The translations under genes and the position numbers were made by a program. Below are positions 9,501-63,220 of a DNA stretch of 64,000 nt, piece by piece (the first letter of the stretch is position 1; each line of letters starts with the position of its first letter). The DNA lies in contig NC_092578.1 in assembly GCF_037975245.1 (NCBI RefSeq), positions 5,683,001 through 5,747,000 of the forward strand, read 5' to 3'. This stretch comes from Apostichopus japonicus (Eukaryota > Echinodermata > Holothuroidea > Aspidochirotida > Stichopodidae). The notes beneath the pieces are model-generated. The model was not told where the DNA came from. It saw only the letters and a program-made list of their open reading frames with translations, and searched no databases.

Positions 9501-12500
9501 AAAATTTTTAGTGCTTGATTAATATAGGTATTATATATTCATTCCAACCTAAGCCGAATATCTAATACATTGCACATACTAATTGCTATATGTTAAAGGG
9601 GCTCACTAACCAAACCATAATACTGTACTTCAATAATTCAAAATGACAAAAGGTGTTTGAAAAATGATGGATTCCTAATTTTGACAAAACAGCAATTGAA
9701 GGAAAAACAAACATAAAATTTGTAATTCATAAATAAACCCTTGCATAGAGGACTCTCCACAGAAATAGGATCACAGTTAATTCTTCACTCTTTTCATGTC
9801 TTTTTTTCTCTCACTTTTTCTTCTTTCTACATATCTTTGCCTTTTCTAATTGACATTTTTCTTTCCATCCTCTTAGTATTCATTCTCGTTAGAGAATCTG
9901 TTTTGCACAAGTATAGCAATGGTTGATTCTCCACTACTTCAAATTTGTTATTTTTCTGTTGATTCAATGTCAAACTGTTTATCAAATTGCCTTGTTGTTT
10001 GCAATGCAAAGTGCAAGGAATGGAACAAAATTGTTAAGTGTATGCATAAGCCGGTCAAAGCAACTTACCAGCTTCGTTTCACAGTTTCTCCTTACTATGC
10101 AATAAATCAACAGCTTGTGATCTGACTGTAAGCCTGCAAGCAGACATCTGAGAAAAGAGAGGGGGAAATAAAGGATTCAATGTACAGAAACATGCCATTG
10201 TGCAGTGTGGGAACGGAAGCAGGTCACTTCGCCCAACTGCCATTTCGCCCAACCTTACCATTTCGCCCAACCAGCCTGGTCATTTCGCCCAACCAGCCTG
10301 GTCATTTCGCCCAACCAGCCTGGTCATTTCGCCCAACCAGCCTGGTCATTTCGCCCAACCAGCCTGGTCATTTCGCCCAACCAGCCTGGTCATTTCGCCC
10401 AACCAGCCTGGTCATTTCGCCCAACCAGCCTGGTCATTTTGCCCAACCAGCCTGGTCATTTTGCCCAACCAGCCTGGTCATTTCGACCAACCTTGACTAA
10501 ATATGGTACTTCAAAAGAAACGTTCGGGAATTGTTAACGTTACAGGATACGAACCGAATATTGAGGAAACTTGAGGATGGATCAGTGTGTAAGGGGTTAG
10601 GTTTGATAGTAAACGTTCAAATATTAAGGAATATTATTATCATGGATTAATAAACCACGAACAATAGGCCACAACGATTCCCCTTTGTTTGTATAATAAT
10701 ATAACTTCCATATAATAATAATATAACTACCAATAATACTGTATAACCCAAAATAAATCAAATTGAACTAGTGAAATAGAAACGGTTATATTATTCCACA
10801 CCGATTCCCCTTTGTTTGTATAATAATATAACTTCCATTGTATGCGTAAACGCCTAAAGTAGTGTAATCCTCCCATTATACCCGAAATAACTGCTCAGAC
10901 TCCGATCGATATCGAGTGGACATCACTTTATTTACCTATTACGAAGTAACCTAACCCAAAATAAATCAAATTGAACTAGTGGAATAAAAAAAAGTAATAT
11001 TATTCTGACTGAATATTAGTAAAAATAAGGTTGGGCGAAATGACCAACACGGTTGGGTGAAATGACCATGCTGGTTGGGCGAAATGACTATGATGGTTGG
11101 GCGAAATGACCATGCTGGTTGGGCGAAATGACCAGGCTAGTTGGGCGAAATGAAAACAATCCCTAACTCTTCAATTGTTTTTGGTACTATGATGTTATTA
11201 ATAATAATCCCACAATCATTGATAATAACATATATTTTTGCTAAAAGTTTGACCCATTCCCAGAGATGAAGCGACTGAAAAGAGAAACTTGATGCTCTGG
11301 CTTTTTACGTAGCCACAATCTAGAGGTGCCATACAGATACACGGTGTAATGAAAGATAATGTACCTAGAACAGAAAACCTGTCGACCAAAATCACACCAG
11401 GGAGGACGAAATTAGGCCTAATATGCGGTTAGTCAAAGAAGAAAATGAAACATTGATGTAAATGACATTATATCTGTGGGACACAAAATTTTGAACAGCA
11501 CTGGATTAAACTGTTAGTAGCCCACTTGTTGGAACTTTTTAATCACAAACAAAGCAATGTACAATGATGTGTCAATGTTACAAAGTTAATTGGTTGGAAT
11601 GACACAAATTTACAAACCAATTATGCAGAAGGCAGCTTTAAGGAATATTACCTTCCTTTTTTCTTTTGTTTTAATCTTTCTAGTTATGGTATATTTCACA
11701 CATAATGAAGTAAGTGGTAAGTCTGAATTTTGTTTGCTTTGAACAACAGTATTCAATCATTTTAGTGGTGCATTCAATGCATGCAAAAAAACCCCATTCA
11801 GGTACAGTTTAGTTAGCAGCATAAATCTAAAATTAGGAGTTCTAACCATCAAGGTCAGATCCAGGATTTTAAGAATGGAGGCATTCTGAAGCTTATTTAG
11901 TCTACAAATTAGGTCTGCAAGGTTGTGGGGATAAAAGAAGGAGAGTCTACACAGCCATATCCCATCCTACATCCTCACCAGCTCATCAGGCCATAAAGAG
12001 TGTCCTCATAGATTGAGTATGAATCACTAGCTACCAAGTTGGGCCACAAAGTAGCATTGATTTTGATAACTCTTTGATACGAAAATCCTTACAATGTATG
12101 TCACAAGCTAGTCCAGTTGCATGTCATATAGTAAACAAAATGTTGACACTGTTTTTAATTTTCCAATTTGTTTTTAAGAGTATACAAAACTACTAAGGGT
12201 CCATACATTTGAAAATCAGTCAACACTTGCTCAAAGGCCTTTGTTTGGTTAAAACAAAATCCTGAAGGGTACCTTCGTGATTAATTGCAATCTTATTATT
12301 ATTATTATTAATACATGGTAAGTTTTTAACATTTCCAGCTCTAAAGTGCTGAAAAGATTTCTACTCACCTGTGATGAGGATCACATCCATTTTGTGACCA
12401 GCTGATTCTACAGAAACCTTGTGGATTCACTTTCATACTCGCAGGATCCTTTGGCCATAGTGTGTTGTCAAGGTTCATCAAACCAATTTCTAAATCAATT

Positions 12501-25573: not shown

Positions 25574-27504
25574 TTACAGCAGGTGTTTTGACATTTCTAC
25601 ATATCCTGGCATGTAATGGTCAACCATATTTAATATATCTGGATGTAATTCGTCTCGCTTTGGAATCGGTTTTTCAACGGAATGAAATTTTCCGCTTGAA
25701 AGCGCTTTATTGAACATTTGACCTTGAGTAATCTTGTCAAATAAGATATGTTCGAAGCCAGAAGTCCACTTGAAGACGATATCGTCCGAAGCATCCCATG
25801 AAAGGTAAGAATCCTTCCACGGGATCCCGATTTCGGCAAAGAGCTTCGGAAGGATCTTCTCAGGAGCTTTCAGGTATTGATCGCTATCTATCACCGGAGC
25901 TTTATGATCAACGTTTTCACGTACGTGTTTCCATAACTCGAACATTTCATCTGCCTCTGTGTTCATGAGTGAATCATCGGCGACGTCATAAGGAGCGTCA
26001 GCAGGTTTCCCTAGCACCCGTAACATGTGAGCCCGATTGGAAGTCAGATATCGATGGGGATGGCGGATGAGAAAGACGTGTTTGATCGGAACCTAATGAT
26101 AAATGAGATAATAATATAATACATGCGGTCTCTATAATTATCTTTCTAAAGAAAAGTTACACGTTTCATATTCTAACAGCATGTCTGTAGTTCTAATATA
26201 TCTTACCTCACTGGAACACATATTCGTCTAATTTATTCCTCTTTAACGAAAAGGAAACATTAAGAACCTCCGCAATAACAATAAAGGTTTGATAAACTTC
26301 AACCAAATGTTAGCATGAATCGGACAGTAAGGAATCAATACTAATGACTTGGAAGCATTGATCTTCAACCAGTCCACATCAAAATGAAATAATTCAAGCA
26401 TATTGATTACTTTGAAGGAGAATTGGGCTATTTGTACTCAGTGGCGTCGCCAGATATTTCAATCTTGTGTCACGTGCCCCCGCCCCCACCCAAAGGCCAC
26501 CACCTGGCGACGCCACTGTTTTTACTATTACTTGACGGGCATTATTACTATACAGAATTCAGCCCATGAAATAGGAATTACAGAATATGTTAAGGGACCC
26601 CCTTTTTTATATTTTGCATTGGAAATTTACATGCATGTCAGCGATGCATATGTAGTAAGAACATGGAAAGGTCATATTTGGCCATAACTACTTTGCAGTG
26701 ATTATTTTCTTGTAAGTCTCACGAGCTTCCCTACCCGGCCTTCAGAGAATCCGCTTTTTCCGGTTTATCGGAAAGAGAACAAACAGATTTGGCGAGTAAA
26801 GACCTCAAGGAAAGTACTTTTGAAAATTTCTAGCAATTATAGCATGCTACCGTATAATTTGGGGCCTATACTGACTACCTTTAATTATGGGCGCTCCAGC
26901 AACAATCCCAAGTTAACAAGACAGGAGCTCAGGACAAGTCAATTTAAACTAAGAGTTCCTAGTCATTGAAAGAACATATACCACTTCTTTAGCATGGGAA
27001 TTTGAATACAACGTTGCAACTTAAGGAGTGCACAGGACAGCAAACAGCAACGTACTTAATGCATATACGGTACATTCTCCATAACTGTCAGCTAAAATCC
27101 TATTGAGTCAACACCTGCTGAAAGGTCATACCTTCTGTGGCATGAATTCATAATGACCATGTATTGTAAAAGCCATATCCTTGACAAAGATAAATTTCGT
27201 ATTTGGATCTGTGGCCCCTCGCTCCAAACCTGCTTTTGTCGATTCATACCTGTTAAGAGAAAATAAAAGGAAATTATTTCTGATCAATTACGATTCTACA
27301 ATATTTACGCATGAAAACTATACATAGGATTTATGATGAGAAAGTGCACAAGCCCTCCCTGAGTATTTTATCTGGGTGAGATTGTAGACTACTGAAAACC
27401 TTCTTAGGCGATATCTACCACTAAAGTGTAGAAGCCCCCCCCCCCACTCGTTGCCCCCACCTGTAGCGAAATATTTATGACTGGTTGGTTGTTTATGAAA
27501 TTGG

Positions 27505-28755: not shown

Positions 28756-30390
28756 AATAATAATAATAATAATTAAAATGTATATAGCGCATAATCAGCA
28801 AAGCTGCTCAAAGCGATTTACAAATGTAAAGCATAAACATAAATAGTAAAAAAAAACAAAATATTAAATATATAGAACCAATAAGGCAAAAAATGTAAAA
28901 GCCAAAAGCAACAATATAAAAACACACCCGTACTAAACGATACTAAAAACTAAGACGCATATAGTCCAAAACAATTTCATAGCACCTGGTATAGTATAAT
29001 AAGACAGTTATTGTAAAAGCCTAAAACAGCCTAAGTAATAAACACCCAATACTAAACGATAACAAATAGAACCCTAAACGTAGTAAATATATACAAAATA
29101 AATTTTAAAAAAAAACAATGTTAACAATTAAGTAGGTAGTTCCAAAGGTAGTTTCTATGCATAATAAAAGTTAGAACATAGTCAATTACACAGTAAAAGC
29201 GAGTCTAAAATAATATGTTTTCCAGGCGTTCCATAATCTGCAGCGCATGGGAGCGCTGACTGAGAAGGCTCTTGCATCTTGTTCTCTTCTCCTTGAGCAA
29301 TTCCTGCGTTGATGACCGTAGGGTTCTGCTATGTTTGTATGGTGTAAGGAGACAAGACAGATAGTAGATGGCTAGACCGTGCAGAGCTTTGCAGGTAAGT
29401 AGGTTAATTTTAAACTTCACTCGAAAATCTATTTTAGCCAATGCAGTGATTCCAGTAGTGGTGTGACATGATCTCTTTTCTTTTTCTTACAAAATATTCG
29501 AGCAGCATTTTTTAACCATTTTCAGCTTGCGAGTTTTAGAGTTGGGGAGTCCAAACAACAGGCTATTTGCATAATCCAGAGGGACGAGATGATATCGTTG
29601 ACCAATGTAGCAGTGGCATCGCGAGTCAGGAATGGGCGGATATGTGATATCTGGCGGAAATGCGAGTAGCACGTCCTATAACAACTCTGTTAATATGGGG
29701 GATCATGCCTAATTCTGATTCTAAAACAGCTCCTATGTTACGGGCTGATACACTTGCAGCAACCCTTGTAGTTCCTATCGTAATTTCTGTGATGTGTGAC
29801 AGAAACTTCTGTGTACTTCTTTTACTGATAATTATAAATTCGGTTTTAGTATCATTCAATTTTAGGTGATTGTCTGTCATCCATTCTCGTATTTCTGAGA
29901 TCGCACTCTCCAGTCGACGTAGCACAGTATCAGAATCCTTTGGATCACATGAAACATGTAACTGTGTGTCGTCAGCATACATGTGTATGTTAATTACGTG
30001 TTTCTCTGCAATTGCGGATAGTGGAGATGTATACAATGGATACATGTATGGGCCCACTACAGAACCCTGGGGAAAGCCTGTCAGTAAGTCCTTACTATAG
30101 CTGAAGACTTGCAATTTATCATTACTGACTGGGTACGTTGTTTCAAATAAGACACAAGCCATTAATGTGCGGTATCTGTGACTGTAATCGATTCAGTAAG
30201 ACGGTGTAGTAAAAGATCTTGATGTATAGTGTCAAACGCTGCACTTTGATCAAGCATCACTATGAACACACAATGATTTCTGTCCAAGGCACATTGTAAG
30301 AACATTGTAAATAACACTGAAGTTGAGCAATACCATGCAGTATAATAAAGACCAACGAGGCGGATAGAAAACAAATAAATATAATAAGAA
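28756..30390 (-). mobile_element. LINE remnant, CR1/L2-like, reverse transcriptase 3' half
   Basis: Minus-strand frames read, in order, VMLDQSAAFDTIHQDLL (about 30290), PQGSVVGP and YADDTQLHV (palm motifs, in the ORF 29626-30162), DNHLKLNDTKTEF, DYANSLLFGLPNSKTRKL (about 29570) and KINLLTCKALHGLAIYYLS (about 29380). This is the usual order of a CR1/L2-type reverse transcriptase. Frame changes and stops between blocks show it is dead. The 3' tail has TATATAGCGC and GCTCAAAGCG before an AATAAT-rich end. Confidence 0.8.
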
Positions 30391-36410: not shown

Positions 36411-39546
<3,136 letters not shown>

Positions 39547-47153: not shown

Positions 47154-48648
47154 TTACAGCAGGTGTTTTGACATTTCTACATATCCTGGCATGTAATGGT
47201 CAACCATATCTAATATATCTGGATGTAATTCGTCTCGCTTTGGAATCGGTTTTTCAACGGAATGAAATTTTCCGCTTGAAAACGCTTTCTTGAAAACTTG
47301 ATCTTGAGTCATCTTGTCATATAGGATATGTTCGAAGCCAGAAGTCCACTTGAAGACGATATCATCCGAAGCATCCCATGAAAGGTAAGAATCCTTCCAC
47401 GGGATCCCGATTTCGGCAAAGAGCTTCGGAAGGATCTTCTCAGGAGCTTTCAGGTATTGATCGCTATCTATCACCGGAGCTTTAGGATCAACGTTTTCAC
47501 GTACGTGTTTCCACAACTCGAACATTTCATCTGCCTCTGTTTTCATGAGTAAATCATCGGCGACTTCATAAGGAGCGTCAGCAGGTTTCCCTAGCACCTG
47601 TAACACGTGAGCCCGATTGGAAGTCAGATATCGATGAGGATGGCGGATGACAAAGACGTGTTTGATCGGAACCTAATGATAAATGAGATAATAATATAAC
47701 ATATGTGGTCTCTATAACTATCTTTCTAAAGAAAAGTTACACGTTTCATATACTAACAGCATGTCTATAGTTCTACTATATCTTACCTCACTGGAACACG
47801 TAGTCATCTAATTTATTCCTCTTTAACGAAAAGGAAACATTAAGGACCTCTGCAATAACAATAAAAGTTTGATAGCTTCAACCAAATGTTAGGATGAATT
47901 GAACAGTAAGGAATCAATACTAATGACTTGGAAGCATTGATCTTCAACCAGTCCACTCAAGGAAAGTACTTTTTGAATAACTTCTGGCAATTATAGCATG
48001 CTACCGTATAATTTGGGGCCTATACTGACTACCTTTAATTATGGCCGGGCGCTCCAGCAACAATCCCAAGTTAACCAGACAAGAGCTCAGGACAAGTCAA
48101 CTTGAACTAAGAGTTCCTAGTCATTGAAAGAACATATACCACTTCTTTAGCATGGGAATTTGAATACAACGTTGCAAGGAGTGCACAGGACAGCACATAG
48201 TAACGTACTTAATGCATATACGGTAAATTCTCCATATCTGTCAGCTATAAGCCTATTTAGTCATCACCTTCTGAAAGAACAAGGACATACCTTCTGTGGC
48301 ATGAATTCATAATGACCATGTATTGTAAAAGCCATATCCTTGACAAAGATAAATTTCGTATTTGGATCTTTGGCCCCTCGCTCCAAACCTGCTTTTGTCG
48401 ATTCATACCTGTTAAGAGAATATAAAAGTAAATTATTTCTGATCAATTACGATACTATAATGTTTACGCATGAAAACTATTCATATAGTGCACAAGCTCT
48501 CCCTGAGTATTTTATCTGGGTGAGATTGTAGACTACTGAAAACCTTTTTAGGCGATATCTACCACTATAGTGTAGAAGCCCCCCCCCCCCTCGTTGCCCC
48601 ACCTGTAGCGAAATATTAATGACTGGTTGGTTGTTAATGACATTGGTC

Positions 48649-54633: not shown

Positions 54634-55252
54634 TTTAATTTACTCTGTTAGCTACTTTATGCAGCTACCATGGAGATAATCCACATATATATATATAATC
54701 CCTGCGACGTGTTTAACTCAAGGTTCTCTTGCTCGAATATAAAGAACAAGTTTAAAACTTTGTATGAAGAAATTTAACCCTTCTAGGATAACAGTAGCGT
54801 GTGCAAAGCGGAGACTTGGTGGTGGGGTATGATCACCACCTCCATCGCTTCTCGGCCTTTTGGCTAAGATCATGTGTAGTATCTGTTCCCTTTCGAGGGG
54901 AATGGTGATGCACACCTGACGATGATCACACAGTCACAGTCCCGATGCAAGGGCACTGGGGTTAGAAGCGGATCAGTCGTTCAGTAGTTTGGTTTTCGTG
55001 CCCAGGTTCTTTCCTGGGCGAAATTTTCTTAAAAAGTATGACCACCACCTCCAATCGTCAGTTGGGGGATATGGTTCGGTTGGTGGATTTTGCATTCAAC
55101 CTCACACAAGGTATTAATTAGTATATCTTCCGTATCACAAAATGTATTTATTAATATATCTTTCATTTAGGGCTTCTTATTTAGACCTACTGTATTGTCT
55201 AAAATTCTAAATATACATAAGAATGCACCATTTGACGTCTAAATTAAGAAAT
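54634..55252. repeat. Start of a fourth duplication unit, truncated
   Basis: Repeats the unit start block (CTCTGTTAGCTACTTTATGC, AAGGTTCTCTTGCTCGAATA, ATTCAACCTCACACAAGGT). It ends at AGAATGCACCATTTGACGTC, which matches unit A (about 23688-23710) rather than B or C. No sulfotransferase follows. Confidence 0.75.
54844..55036 (+). mobile_element. U2 snRNA-headed retro-insertion with 16-bp duplication
   Basis: The first 45 bases (54844-54888) match the conserved 5' end of U2 snRNA, including CTTCTCGGCCTTTTGGCTAA and the branch-site recognition segment GTGTAGTATCTGTTC. One change from the usual sequence is noted (ATCATG for ATCAAG). From 54889 it leaves U2 and continues with unrelated sequence containing a hairpin, TGCCCAGGTTCTTTCCTGGGCG, and ends AAAAAG. 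It interrupts the unit start block and is flanked by TATGATCACCACCTCC (54828-54843) and TATGACCACCACCTCC (55037-55052). This marks retrotransposition, either of a U2-headed SINE or of a one-off chimeric RNA. It is not a complete U2 gene. Confidence 0.85.
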
Positions 55253-56927: not shown

Positions 56928-57212
56928 ATGGACGGTGAAGACTATGGGGGCAAAGATCTTACTTCAATCTTCAAAGGTAAGAAGATGTAACGATTGATAT
57001 AGCCAAGTATAGGCCTATGTAGTGATCTATAGAGAAACTTTGACATAGGCTACATATATTCACTGCGATAAACGCTACCTATTATTGCATGGTAAGCTCG
57101 GATGATATTTGTTCTGTCATCTAACTTCATCCATTATCTTAACAAAACAGATGATGGTTTACATATAATCGGAATGTTCAATTAAACAATTGTAAGTAGT
57201 ACTATAGTGTAG

Positions 57213-57623: not shown

Positions 57624-60600
57624 TCTGTTCCAATGGCGGTGGAGGGGAGCAGTCATTCTGTACACTGTCACAATGATATTGTCCTCAAATTGATACTATT
57701 TGAACTTATGGTTGCTGTGAATCCTTTCAGATCAAGTCATACCTAAATCAGATTGATTTGAAATTAAGAATGCCCATGTATTACACGGTACATTATCCCG
57801 TTTCCGTTTTGCACATCAGGTCGCTGTGCTGACATTACCAACATATACATTCCTAAATGTCGGTTTTCGAGGAACGATAATGCAGCAAGTGAAGGGGTTT
57901 GTGGTTCTGCTGAAAAGCCTACGAGAGGCGATGATCGTAGGGTTAGTACCAGCAAAGACGAAACCCGTAATAATCGAAACAGCAAAACAAAGAAATCAAA
58001 AGAAATCGACGTGGACCAGTACAAAGTTGAATTGCTGGAAACATATTTTCAATACTACAGTAACTTGTGGTCAACATCCCAAAGAGAAGTGAGTTTTTTC
58101 ATTTAATATTTGAAGAATGCTATGTCCATGGGTAAGTCGGCTTCCCAGTCCAGACAATAATTATGTGACTAAATATGATTCTATAACTGTTAATAAGAAA
58201 AAGCCAAACATGGTCTTCCAACTTTATATGTACAGTGAGTACACGTGTATTACCCTTTAATACCGTATTGTCCTTTGAAAAGCAATTTGCACTTTGGCCA
58301 GTCTAAAATGTTTTGATGTCGCAATATTCTCTGAAATGGGCAAAACAGTTACCAAATGTTGTTTATAATATCTGCATGCATAATTTTGTAAGAGCTTAGC
58401 CTGGGCAGTTCAATTTCTGTTGGCAGAAATGTCAATAAGCGTTAATACCTAAAGGTTGGAGTCGTATATATTCCTGCTTAGTTGTACGGTTGTCCATATA
58501 TAGGCCTACGGCCAGGGCGGACTGAGTCTTAAAATCGGCCCGGGCATATTTCACCTAGACCGGCCCATTATTCATTGATATGTTACTTACATAGATTGCC
58601 GTCCTGTGGGGGTGTAAGGAGAGGGGTGTCCCCCTCCCCATTGAGATTTTGTTGAAGTTAAGGAATGACTAGATGCAAAATGGTGCTATATTTCTCAATT
58701 GTGTAGGTTACAAAATCATTTAAAAAAAGGCCCAATATAATTTTCCAGAATCAACACTTGATTAAACTGAGAAAAGTTTAAAACGTAAACAAAACTAGAC
58801 AAAAATATATGTTTAAAACTGGATTTTTCTTCAAGCGTTTTGTGACAATATGCTTGAAAAAAGGGGGAAAGGGTATATAGTCCCCTACACACACTGTTGT
58901 CGCCCTATTCAATTAGTGTGGGGATCTATTTCGCGAAATCGGTCAACCGGGGAAAAATACTCAAAGTCGTCGACTATTACATTCGTTTAATTTGATAAAC
59001 AAATACCCTACTGTATGTGGGTCATTTTTATTCATACATAATCTCTCAGGACTTAGCTATTAATCTAATCTAATCTAATCTAATAAGATTTTACAATTTT
59101 TTACTTCGTTTTCTGGAGGACGAGGTGCAGATTAATAAAATTTGTATTCTCTGCTAATGTTATGTATATATCAGAATGCATTGGTCACCGTACTTGTATA
59201 TATTGTCGTAAAAATATATGCACGGACGGGTTGCCAATAGCACGTTCTTTTGTTACGAATTAACAGACTAACTAACGTGGTGATTTCATGAGCTGATTCC
59301 CACAGTTAAGAATTAATTTCTACACAGCCCGTCTGTATTCTATTAACTGCTGTGAACATGGACTGTAATTTTTACCAGGCTCCCCATCCCACCGGCCCAA
59401 TTGCCCGTGTGGCCAGTCCGCCACTACCTACGGCTGTCCATGAGTTTTCAACTTTCTTTTTCAATTAACACAAACAAAGGATGAAGAATCCGGGGACTCT
59501 GCAGATGACTCGGGAGAAGACGCTTCACTCGGCTCTGACTTTCCAACTATGAGAGATGTTAGTAAGTAGACCTGTGTTGTTTTCGGAATTGTTTATGTTA
59601 AGTTGCGTTCATCATGATAGCCTGTATTTAAATTGTAAATACTTCTTTTTAGTAGTAACGTGAGTCGGATATTCAGCATCGGTAGTTGTGTCAATAAAGT
59701 ATAGTACATTAATTTAACAGAGGCTTCTATAGCTGGGCTGGGGACATAATGTGTCAATGTATTTAAGTTGTACCGACAAAATTGCTTATGTGAATAATAT
59801 GCTCGTTTAAATATCGCTTCTAAAGTACCACAAATTATCATTTACAAATTCCACAGAACAAAAACAAAGGGATTTCAACAAAGCGGTAAAAAGGGAAGTA
59901 AATGAGGTAAGTGTTAAAGTATCAAAGAAGCTATATCTTATGATTGTCTACACAAAGGTTTGTTAATCTCGTTTCTGTCTCCTTTCTAAGAAGAAATTAA
60001 ACGGGCAAGTTTTCAGCACAGGAAGGTTTTAAATGAATAACAATAACTATAGAACATATTCGCCAGGATCTTAAAAGCTGATTATGTGTAAATATTTCTT
60101 AATGATATAAATAGACATTATAGGTAATTTCAAATCATTGTTGTAATCATTAACCTTCGAGTAGGATAAACTAGATGAAGTTCCTCTATTTTCGTAAAAT
60201 AAATGGTGTTTATATGGGTTATTATTATCGCATTCATTCTTATTTTTTTACCGTTGCACCTACACAGGATGTCCTATGTATGTTAACAGTAATAACGACA
60301 CAAACTTGTTCAAAATATAAACCTGGCCGAAAATGTTTTTCCACAGAATACCTGTATCTTTTACGACACAGTTGAGATATACGGTGATAAGCTTCCAGAG
60401 TTGAAAAGCGGTACGGATGAAAGTGATTATAGCAAACCTAATTTTATAGTGAAAGTTCAACTAGGTCCCAAAAAAGTTCCCCGAATAATGCTATGGTCTG
60501 AGGCGACACAGGGTTACCTAAATAAATTTTATCCGTATGACGGAGTATTTCGGATTCCAGCAGGCTTTGTAGGTGTGGACACACCAACGAAGAAAAATGT

Positions 60601-63220
60601 TGCCGAAGAGACAAGTATTGAGGAACCTGAACCAGTTGAACAAAGCGGAAACGACACGAGTGCAGGAACTAATGGTGTCCAAGAAGAATCTCGAAGAGGT
60701 AATGGTACGTGGGAAACAACTATTGAACACCTAACACTTCGGACCGACGAGGAATTGAAAGAAAGGAAAAGAAAGGGATTTTGCAACAAACGAAGGGGAG
60801 ACATTGCTCAGGAAGAAGTTCTTAAAAAATTTGAGGAGTGGGGGCGAGATCGTGAGCTGAACATGTTCATGTTCGGTGGATATGAGTATAAATCTTTCTT
60901 AGCTAACCTCACACCAAGACCCAAACACTTAGCTAGAAGAATAAAAGGTGTGTTTGATATTTTAATCATTTGCCAACAAATTGGGCTTATCATAGTTGAA
61001 GTTAAGAGTACGTTCATAAAGGATGCTACAATGGAAATCCATGAGAACCGGACAGCGCCAAACGACGTTTCACAAAAACTGCAGAATACACTTGATCAAT
61101 TGATGAAAGGGTGGAAGCAGTTAATGAAAGGAAACTTTATTGCGAGAGAAATGAACCGCGACTTAAGTTTTGTGAAGCATATTCCAGCAAGCGCGTTTCT
61201 TGTAGTCCCTAACATTTCCAAATCAGGTTTGGATAACATTAAAATATGTCAGCATCACCGCAGGTACATCGTGTGTAGAGATGATCTTTCTCTAATTCAC
61301 GGCTGGCTAGACAACCACTTTCCGTGTCTCCGTCGAAGGGATTGTCATAACGTTCTAACAAAAGATCAATACAGGACCTTAGTGTCTCGGTTTGTGGGCC
61401 CAGTTTCTGCAGTTGTTGTAGAGACCGAGACAATACAAAGTACAAATAATAAAATGACATTCTTGAACCCTGAACAAGAACGTATCGTTTGTAGTAAGTC
61501 AAAACATGCCCTCATATTTGATGATTACGGTACTGGTAAGAGTTTAGTTCTAATGCAAAAGGCTTTATCCTTATGTAAACCTTCATTTACCAACAATGAA
61601 TGTATAAGAGCCCATATCATATCTTGTGCTGACGTGTCCAATTTAAAGTTTTGGTATGGTCTGAGAGCATCGCATCAAGCCAAAGCACTGAAATCCCTCA
61701 TTGGAGAGAAACAACAAGCAGAGCATGTGATTTGCTATGGTTCTTTTCTCGAGTTTTATACCAAAGTATTGGGAACAAATGACGGTCGTGTGAATTTTGA
61801 TGTTGACATGGTAATTAAAGCATTAAGCACTTTAGTGACAGGACAACGGAAAGACAAAGAATCAAAGTTCAAAGAGAATAATGAACATCATTTCTTTTTT
61901 GATGAATTTCCTATTCAGCCTTTAAAGAATGATGGATTACACAAATTGTACGGTTTTTGGGATGATTTAAATGAAAAGATTTTGCGAGATCAACAAAAAA
62001 ACATGTTGAGAGAACCGTGCTATCTGTGGTTAAGTGTAGCAACTCATTCAGTCGGCGTCCCGCCGGACGAAAGTCCTTCCAAAATACTAAAAAATGTGCT
62101 TCACTCACTGCCAGAACGTCTCCGTTACTGTTACCTAAATAAAGTCATGAGAGTACCTGGTACCTTATATAATATGATCAGAAAAATTGAGACATTCATT
62201 GGTAAAGGACATGGTGGATATTCAGATCTTGGCCATAGTGTCCGTGGTATAATGCCAAGGTTGTATAGGTTACCACAACGTCAGTGTGAAGACGACGAAA
62301 CCCTCGGTTGTGAGTGCATATGCAGTAGACAGAGACTAACAAAGGTTCTCAAACAAATAATAGATTCATTAGATGAGGTAGAAGGTACTCCTAAGCTACA
62401 GATAACATTGATATTGTATTACGTCATGTCAAGTAATATGTTTGAGAGAATCCGACAGTTATTAGAAGATGTTTGCAATGGCTTGTCAATTAAGTTAGAG
62501 TGGGACACGATACAATATCATATGAAGGACAAAATGAAGAACAGATTCACGGATGGTCTGACAGGTTCAAAAGATGGACCGACAATGGTCGGCAATGAAA
62601 CATGCGAAAATCATTTAGAGAAGACAAACATGCAGGCAGATCTGTCCGTTCATACTACCATTGGTGGTAACAAAGGTATCTCATGTAGTCAGACCAATAA
62701 TGATGATCTAGTCGGTTGTCAACAAGTAATATCGGGAATGCTTCAAAATCTCCACATTGCTGGTGATGGAAATACAGAGGTAGATAAAACTGTGTCCTCA
62801 AGCTGTCAGAATACAGATGTCAAATGTAAGGAAGCATCTTCCCGGACCTTACAAGTAGTCGATCAGCGAACATTCGCGGGCTGTGAAACATCGGTTTTAA
62901 TATTCCTCGACCCGTTTGAGATGCGGCATTGGTATCGTAGAGGAGATAGAACGGGCTCAGGATACCACAGTCTTATCTTTACAAGATGCACAGGCCACTT
63001 CATTTTAATAACCTGGCCAAAAGACGAAGCCGGGTTGATGTGGGAGAAACATCTTGAAGAATACGGAGAGGAGGTAAGCAGAAGCGATGCAACCGATAGC
63101 TACAAGTATGGGAGATTTCAGTACATTGCTGGTGGTCGGAAGGCACATTTTGAAAGTCCAAAGACTTGCCTCGATATGCTCCTTGAAACTAAATGTATTC
63201 ACAATGTTCAAATTGAATAA
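56928..63220 (+). CDS. NERD nuclease-like / superfamily-1 helicase-like protein (5 exons, 1107 aa)
   Basis: Exons: 56928-56976, 57820-58088, 59480-59561, 59857-59906, 60347-63220; all GT-AG, all phases match. Residues 1-150 are charged and low in complexity. Residues about 300-400 look like a NERD (nuclease-related) domain: [15 protein letters not shown], then [20 protein letters not shown] with D354 and E368-V-K370 as the PD-(D/E)xK-like core. Residues about 521-560 carry [10 protein letters not shown] and FDDYGTGKS (Walker A, K548); HHFFFDEF is Walker B (D669, E670). Near the C-terminus [13 protein letters not shown] and [17 protein letters not shown] match the late SF1 helicase motifs. Substrate and role are unknown. 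NERD-helicase fusions include the bacterial anti-phage Nhi proteins, which suggests but does not prove an immune role. A Ser/Asn/Thr-rich, likely disordered insert covers about residues 890-980. No membrane segment. The start is the first ATG in a short first exon (AAAGATGG context). Confidence 0.82.
57216..57304. repeat. TA microsatellite in intron 1 of the NERD-helicase gene
   Basis: About 44 TA units with one interruption. A second shorter TA array lies at 57588-57620. Confidence 0.9.
58513..59426. mobile_element. hAT-like element, 914 bp, perfect 8-bp duplication
   Basis: Starts CAGGGCGGACTGAGTC and ends GGCCAGTCCGCCACTA; CCTACGGC flanks both sides (58505-58512 and 59427-59434). The next internal sequence is also inverted (CGGCCCGGGCA against TGCCCGTGTGGCC). 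No transposase. It lies in intron 2 of the NERD-helicase gene. Confidence 0.8.

Follow-up and report, generated by a model that had tools for sequence, protein, structure and literature searches.

We identify a predicted animal gene that very probably joins a NERD-like nuclease domain to a superfamily 1 (SF1) helicase domain, in that order, and that belongs to a multigene family in the holothuroid Apostichopus japonicus. The gene lies on the forward strand of the window analysed here, a stretch of 64,000 nucleotides (C18:5683001-5747000 of a genome of 671,581,487 bases in 35 contigs). A sequence-only reading had proposed both this architecture in one animal gene and its likeness to prokaryotic NERD-helicases, and profiles built from the family, with shuffle controls, bear out the two proposals.

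The coding region is a stop-to-stop open frame of 974 codons (60296-63217, + strand), within which the last exon, entered at the TTTTTCCACAG acceptor before 60347, comprises 957 codons and a stop. The earlier count of 939 codons was slightly low, although the long open frame it described is confirmed, the peptides it quoted are found in frame, and its numbering to residue 1107 is matched by our five-exon model, in which all introns are GT/AG. This 1107-residue protein is predicted from genomic sequence and not from transcripts. Two copies on contig C1 retain exons 1 to 4 with their splice sites at 93-98% identity, and the exon-2 donor of paralog L009 reads GTGATT, as against GTGAGT in the window. 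When the 198 substitutions separating the window gene from L009 were placed randomly on one lineage, a mean of 8.3 stops arose, and the frame stayed free of stops in 0 of 2000 simulations. The open frame is beyond chance because the same motifs are kept in 20 uninterrupted family members. This is a real animal gene, spliced on the evidence of its predicted exons, that joins a nuclease-type domain to a helicase-type motor.

Searches of the same genome place the family at 26 sites on 10 contigs, a lower bound. The window protein gave 35 matches, grouped into 22 places; using diverged members as queries brought in two more on C18 and two on C7, and an L029 query added none. One uninterrupted frame covers the region in 20 of the 22 first-found places, with L018 broken and L026 split between two frames. 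The two later places on C7 contain stops or a split frame, the matches on C18 fall in open frames of 344 and 852 codons, and five of the 26 places in all look broken, short or split. Clustered copies make up 21 of the 26, on C1 (2), C2 (3), C6 (3), C7 (3), C9 (2+2), C13 (2), C15 (2) and C18 (2), and by these placements the multigene family is largely tandem. Other branches share 19-28% identity with the window in the family alignment; recent groups are well supported in the tree, and deep branches are long and uncertain.

The window and the C1 copies are about 90% identical from 56375 to the window end, in an alignment with gaps that takes in the introns; the similarity extends some 550 bp ahead of exon 1, also at about 90% identity. 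Estimates of dN/dS (Nei-Gojobori) for recent copies range from 0.28 to 0.74 over nine pairs, and the window and C1 copies give 0.72-0.74. On small counts, pN/pS within this trio is 0.93-1.43 in the N-terminal region and the first helicase region, 0.39-0.81 in the NERD domain, and 0.30-0.63 in the parts spanning motifs III-IV and V-VI. By inspection of open frames, the N-terminal region of L021, L024 and L025 seemingly lies on a separate exon. Some 4 kb ahead of their main exons, L014 and L016 have a short segment of open reading frame (ORF) in common (VKDLQAKLVIRDNAIKKYYVELNHLWEAVRRRSQV), which may be an upstream exon containing coiled-coil sequence. An upstream coding domain common to all branches was not found, and cross-branch upstream matches look like repeats.

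Motif counts throughout refer to an alignment of the 20 uninterrupted members, window included. In the NERD-like domain the catalytic D...(E/Q)xK arrangement and the downstream Gln that characterize NERD are present (Table 1), with Glu or Gln together at position 218 in 19/20 and Glu in the window itself. A Pfam scan of the NERD slices at E up to 1 returned NERD (PF08378) in nine of the 20, with a best value of 3e-4. Nine other Pfam families were matched, including HSDR_N, HSDR_N_2 and UPF0102, which are themselves PD-(D/E)xK nucleases; the remainder were noise-like. Profile-profile comparison (hhalign) of the NERD slice with the NERD part of four archaeal proteins gave 95.9%, where 40 column-shuffles reached at most 0.9%, and comparison with 11 prokaryotic proteins gave 95.4%, with 40 shuffles at most 0.3%. 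One archaeal reference, L032, exceeds the Pfam NERD cut-off (27.5 vs 22.1 bits). Among PADLOC models, 'Viperin-associated NERD' was matched by 2/20 slices (best 1.6e-4) among scattered other models, and window region 60737-61390 matched HEC-02B weakly (0.0016). For the NERD domain, a profile search of the PDB found no convincing relative and one chance-like match. A PF08378 search of the whole genome recovered no member of the NERD-helicase family, and one unrelated exon only. That separate animal exon (L030 1435-1899; G000:C19:27749040-27749282) carries a canonical NERD domain above the Pfam cut-off, and tblastn with the 20 NERD-helicase members gave no clear match to it.

The second domain is divergent but keeps the ATPase residues of an SF1 motor: the Q motif, Walker A, Walker B, the motif IV and VI Arg residues and the motif V Glu are each present in at least 19/20, with motif names assigned by position. 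Per-member Pfam scans at E up to 1 matched AAA_22 in 8/20, UvrD-helicase in 3/20 (best 8e-4) and SLFN-g3_helicase in 3/20 (best 0.019), and other P-loop families matched too, 25 of the 44 families being listed. In both members examined in full, the UvrD-helicase score falls under the Pfam cut-off. The helicase slice aligned with 11 prokaryotic NERD/UvrD helicases at 32.3% (hhalign, E 4.8e-4; 40 shuffles at most 0.6%), and the family profile found weak matches only in the PDB (mS29, PcrA, SMUBP-2 and others, E 0.04 or worse). A Cys cluster between motifs IV and V may form a zinc site, judging from the conserved residues.

Other comparisons take the two domains together. The full family profile aligned with 11 archaeal and bacterial NERD/UvrD helicases over 485 columns (hhalign 96.4%, E 1.4e-9), and the alignment is collinear, with the NERD Asp, Walker A, Walker B, motif IV and motif V in register. 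In paralog L019, the PADLOC model C3a187 'NERD+UvrD' matched residues 169-398, from the NERD core to Walker A (E 1.5e-5). A tblastn search of 72,556 plasmid records with L019 matched eight records, of which the three with the lowest E (0.02-0.03) are from Haloarcula and span residues 168-403; two of these carry the annotation 'nuclease-related domain-containing DEAD/DEAH box helicase', the third being a 'hypothetical protein'. Direct comparison of L019 with the Haloarcula protein gave 4e-9, an E value for one pair, and the family profile aligned with the same protein at 96.7%. The window protein gave weak matches only against plasmids and phages by tblastn, none of them a NERD-helicase, and no match to viral contigs. 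Neither the family alignment nor the archaeal one picked up any relative when viral contigs were scanned.

Several results weigh against this picture and are limitations of the study. On its own, the window protein matched 0 Pfam families at E up to 10, 0 NCBIfam families and 0 PDB chains, and its NERD slice reached PF08378 with an E of 0.16 and 12.9 bits over the catalytic core, where the cut-off is 22.1 bits. Plasmid searches by tblastn with the window protein (13 records) and with L028 (one weak record) returned no NERD-helicase, so that one of three queries succeeded. Gln replaces Glu in the (E/Q)xK signature of 12/20 members, and AlphaFold predictions for the NERD region, by itself and jointly with three archaeal relatives, reached mean pLDDT values of just 35.5 and 43.8, a low confidence. 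For the helicase domain, motifs Ia and III were not recognisable by eye in the 20-member alignment; comparison with a four-sequence archaeal profile gave 17%, covering Walker A only, and short mid and C-terminal helicase slices gave no signal against that profile. Finally, dN/dS near 0.7 in the window's trio could reflect relaxed constraint.

We favour a role in defence, which the sequence-only reading had also raised, as the best single reading, with a probability of about 0.5, drawing on the family's prokaryotic relatives, its tandem copies, its fast divergence and the L027 paralog. The protein would be a UvrD-like SF1 translocase, driven along nucleic acid by ATP, with a NERD (PD-(D/E)xK) nuclease at its N terminus, and its most likely task would be to restrict or sense foreign nucleic acid in the cytosol or the nucleus. 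Its motor would engage single-stranded intermediates, or those of the replication type, and track along them using ATP, and the metal-dependent NERD domain would cut the nucleic acid being tracked. Nuclease activity, ATPase activity, substrate and polarity we infer from sequence. UvrD-like motors have a frequent role in repair, and the active-site residues are conserved in the family, as would suit a genome-maintenance nuclease-helicase of DNA repair, recombination or meiosis that was multiplied in this lineage. We consider this unlikely: 26 dispersed and tandem places, five of them broken, short or split, are unusual for a housekeeping enzyme, as is divergence that is both deep (19-28% identity) and, among recent copies, fast.

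Paralog L027 bears on a different possibility. Some members are probably inactive: L027 lacks three conserved residues, namely the Lys of NERD, the Asp of Walker B and the Arg of motif VI. Two ORFs upstream of it on the same strand (L027 409-1047 and 1895-2389) are mutually homologous (1e-14, 38% identity), with a GS turn in the first and GI in the second; Pfam gave a weak ACT_5 match for the second (0.049) and none for the first. TRADD-N domains are described, in PMC8195603, as having a conserved tiny-Ser turn, a likeness to ACT and an expansion in echinoderms. By these features the ORF pair may be TRADD-N-like, a candidate identity that no profile confirmed, with a putative fusion to the NERD-helicase. 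The family could alternatively comprise pseudo-enzymes or ATP-dependent sensors that keep NERD mainly for binding and signal through fused or associated adaptor domains, in keeping with the frequent Gln for Glu, with the position of the catalytically depleted L027 downstream of two tandem homologous ORFs, and with the resemblance of their GS turn and weak ACT-like match to the TRADD-N traits. The Asp is nevertheless kept in 20/20 and the Lys in 19/20, the L027 fusion is only putative, and the second ORF, used as a query against the genome, recovered this pair alone. QxK is also present in active Mrr-type nucleases, and we hold a family of pseudo-enzymes to be quite unlikely.

Many copies on 10 contigs, repeats nearby, and a single open frame running from NERD to motif VI in each of the 20 uninterrupted members could alternatively indicate that the coding region is part of, or was spread by, a mobile element, and that the family is element-derived. 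The clustering of 21 of the 26 copies, the predicted upstream exons, and the introns and upstream sequence common to the window and C1 copies, as in segmental duplication, argue against this and make it improbable. No transposase or integrase was seen by eye among nearby open frames of at least 110 codons, in an inspection that was no systematic scan and did not search for element ends. Bacterial contamination or a chance open frame, to which the prokaryotic nature of the nearest named relatives might point (in a comparison that covered no animal database), is refuted by predicted introns kept in copies, the 26 places, the conserved motifs, contigs of 19-37 Mb (nine measured) and a frame that is stop-free despite 198 substitutions.

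Returning to defence, we tentatively suggest a more specific history, in which a prokaryotic NERD-helicase, taken up as a largely intronless coding unit by echinoderms and perhaps by further marine invertebrates, multiplied there into a fast-turnover family of cell-autonomous antiviral nuclease-helicases. At least one member (L027) would have become joined to tandem TRADD-N-like adaptors, yielding a signalling nucleic-acid sensor. This extended account is doubtful in its entirety.

Table 1. Features of the NERD-helicase gene and of the rest of the window, in window coordinates; residues are numbered within the last exon (full-protein number minus 150).
Feature	Position	Strand	Evidence
Predicted exon 1 with start ATG	56928..56976	+	GT donor; 97% identity including flanks in two C1 copies
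Predicted exon 2	57820..58088	+	AG acceptor, GT donor; 94-96% identity in C1 copies
Predicted exon 3	59480..59561	+	AG/GT; 96-98% identity in C1 copies
Predicted exon 4	59857..59906	+	AG/GT; 93-95% identity in C1 copies
Predicted exon 5 and stop codon, coding for the N-terminal region and the NERD-like nuclease and SF1-like helicase domains	60347..63220	+	Open frame; 20 uninterrupted members including window
N-terminal region (Cys near start; Y....F...YRvP pattern)	60347..60571	+	Family alignment; recognisable in many paralogs
NERD-like PD-(D/E)xK nuclease domain	60767..61381	+	PF08378 in 9/20 slices (E up to 1); hhalign 95%, controlled by shuffles
Catalytic-type Asp 204	60956..60958	+	20/20
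E-V-K, (E/Q)xK signature, residues 218-220	60998..61006	+	Position 218: E 7, Q 12, K 1 of 20; Lys 220 in 19/20
Conserved NERD-domain Gln 258	61118..61120	+	19/20
UvrD-like SF1 helicase/NTPase domain, divergent	61445..63217	+	Pfam, PADLOC, profile-profile
Q-motif Gln 377	61475..61477	+	20/20
Walker A, DDYGTGKS	61520..61543	+	G, T, G, K (GTGK 395-398) each 20/20
Walker B, FFFDEFP	61892..61912	+	Asp 519 in 19/20, Glu 520 in 20/20
Motif IV-like, Arg 602	62132..62158	+	20/20; MRVP aligns with YRSP of prokaryotic NERD-helicases
Cys cluster between motifs IV and V	62279..62329	+	Cys 647 and 659 in 20/20; Cys 657 in 19/20
Motif V-like, GCE	62870..62896	+	Gly 845 and Glu 847 each 19/20; aligns with KGNE of prokaryotic NERD-helicases
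Motif VI-like, Arg 880	62978..63025	+	19/20; named by position and inspection; beyond the 485-column hhalign alignment
U2 spliceosomal RNA match	54844-54920	+	52.6 bits (gathering 46), 77 bases
Sulfotransferase-like open frames (three)	25577-26092, 36414-36929, 47157-47672	-	Sulfotransfer_5
Reverse-transcriptase fragment	29629-30192	-	RVT_1, 2e-12
Minisatellite of HFAQPAWSFRPTSLVISPNQPG repeats	10132-10534	+	Open in three frames

Elsewhere in the window, the U2 match is the sole Rfam match at the gathering threshold and is possibly a pseudogene. The three sulfotransferase-like frames are similar to one another and lie about 11 kb apart as a tandem gene array; two score above and one below the Pfam cut-off. 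A reverse-transcriptase fragment and a minisatellite are also present.

Schlafen proteins are animal proteins in which a nuclease-type domain is joined to an SF1-type helicase. In profile searches the present family gave only the weak SLFN-g3_helicase matches; no Schlafen chain occurs among the 13 PDB sequences that its profile picks out at E up to 10, and the AlbA-type Schlafen nuclease core is absent from the full Pfam tables of nine members and of the NERD slices. With Gabija GajB the family has a UvrD-like SF1 domain in common, and paralog L023 matches GajB models (E 6e-6), but GajB, as described in PMC10952713, is a UvrD-like helicase that promotes a separate nuclease, GajA. PADLOC matches to PDLC01081 'C3a166' (E about 0.05) were dismissed as noise. 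PMC10952713 also names the pairing of a helicase with DUF2290 as an anti-phage system. Four plasmid-borne UvrD-like helicases with a DUF2290 gene directly after them (L050, L052, L053 and L054) were observed; these align together in the same profile. Near the animal genes no DUF2290 partner was seen, in the absence of a search aimed at one.

Nhi of Staphylococcus epidermidis, to which the sequence-only reading compared the gene, likewise has a nuclease and a helicase in one protein. It is activated by phage SSB according to PMC10732053, and NERD is listed in PMC10952713 among the domains of Mokosh type I and Nhi-like systems. The comparison draws some weak support from the PADLOC Nhi model, matched by 10/20 members at E up to 1 (best 9e-6). 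The five matches with position shown are confined to Walker A and give no support for Nhi membership, and full-length Nhi homology was not found among them.

Among the titles listed by literature searches, whose coverage excluded most subscription journals, none describes an animal NERD-helicase family; the accessible part of PMC8195603 contains no occurrence of 'NERD', and that of PMC13228809 none of 'NERD' or 'helicase'. How such a family goes unseen is suggested by the window protein itself, which has no significant Pfam match, whereas most of the family profile can be aligned with NERD-helicases. Anti-phage proteins of prokaryotes keep emerging as roots of eukaryotic immunity, and echinoderms are without vertebrate-type adaptive immunity. 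The largely tandem animal NERD-helicase family would be a testable candidate for cell-autonomous nucleic-acid immunity in echinoderms. Archaeal and bacterial NERD-UvrD helicases, such as Haloarcula hispanica WP_014030751.1, have the same order of NERD followed by UvrD-like SF1 domain. The animal family differs from them in sharing only 16-21% identity, in its divergent motifs Ia and III, in an N-terminal Cys/YRvP region that lies outside the alignment, and in a Cys cluster that has no counterpart within it. On this comparison of sequences, the animal family is a new variant of the prokaryotic NERD-helicase kind, which was already known.

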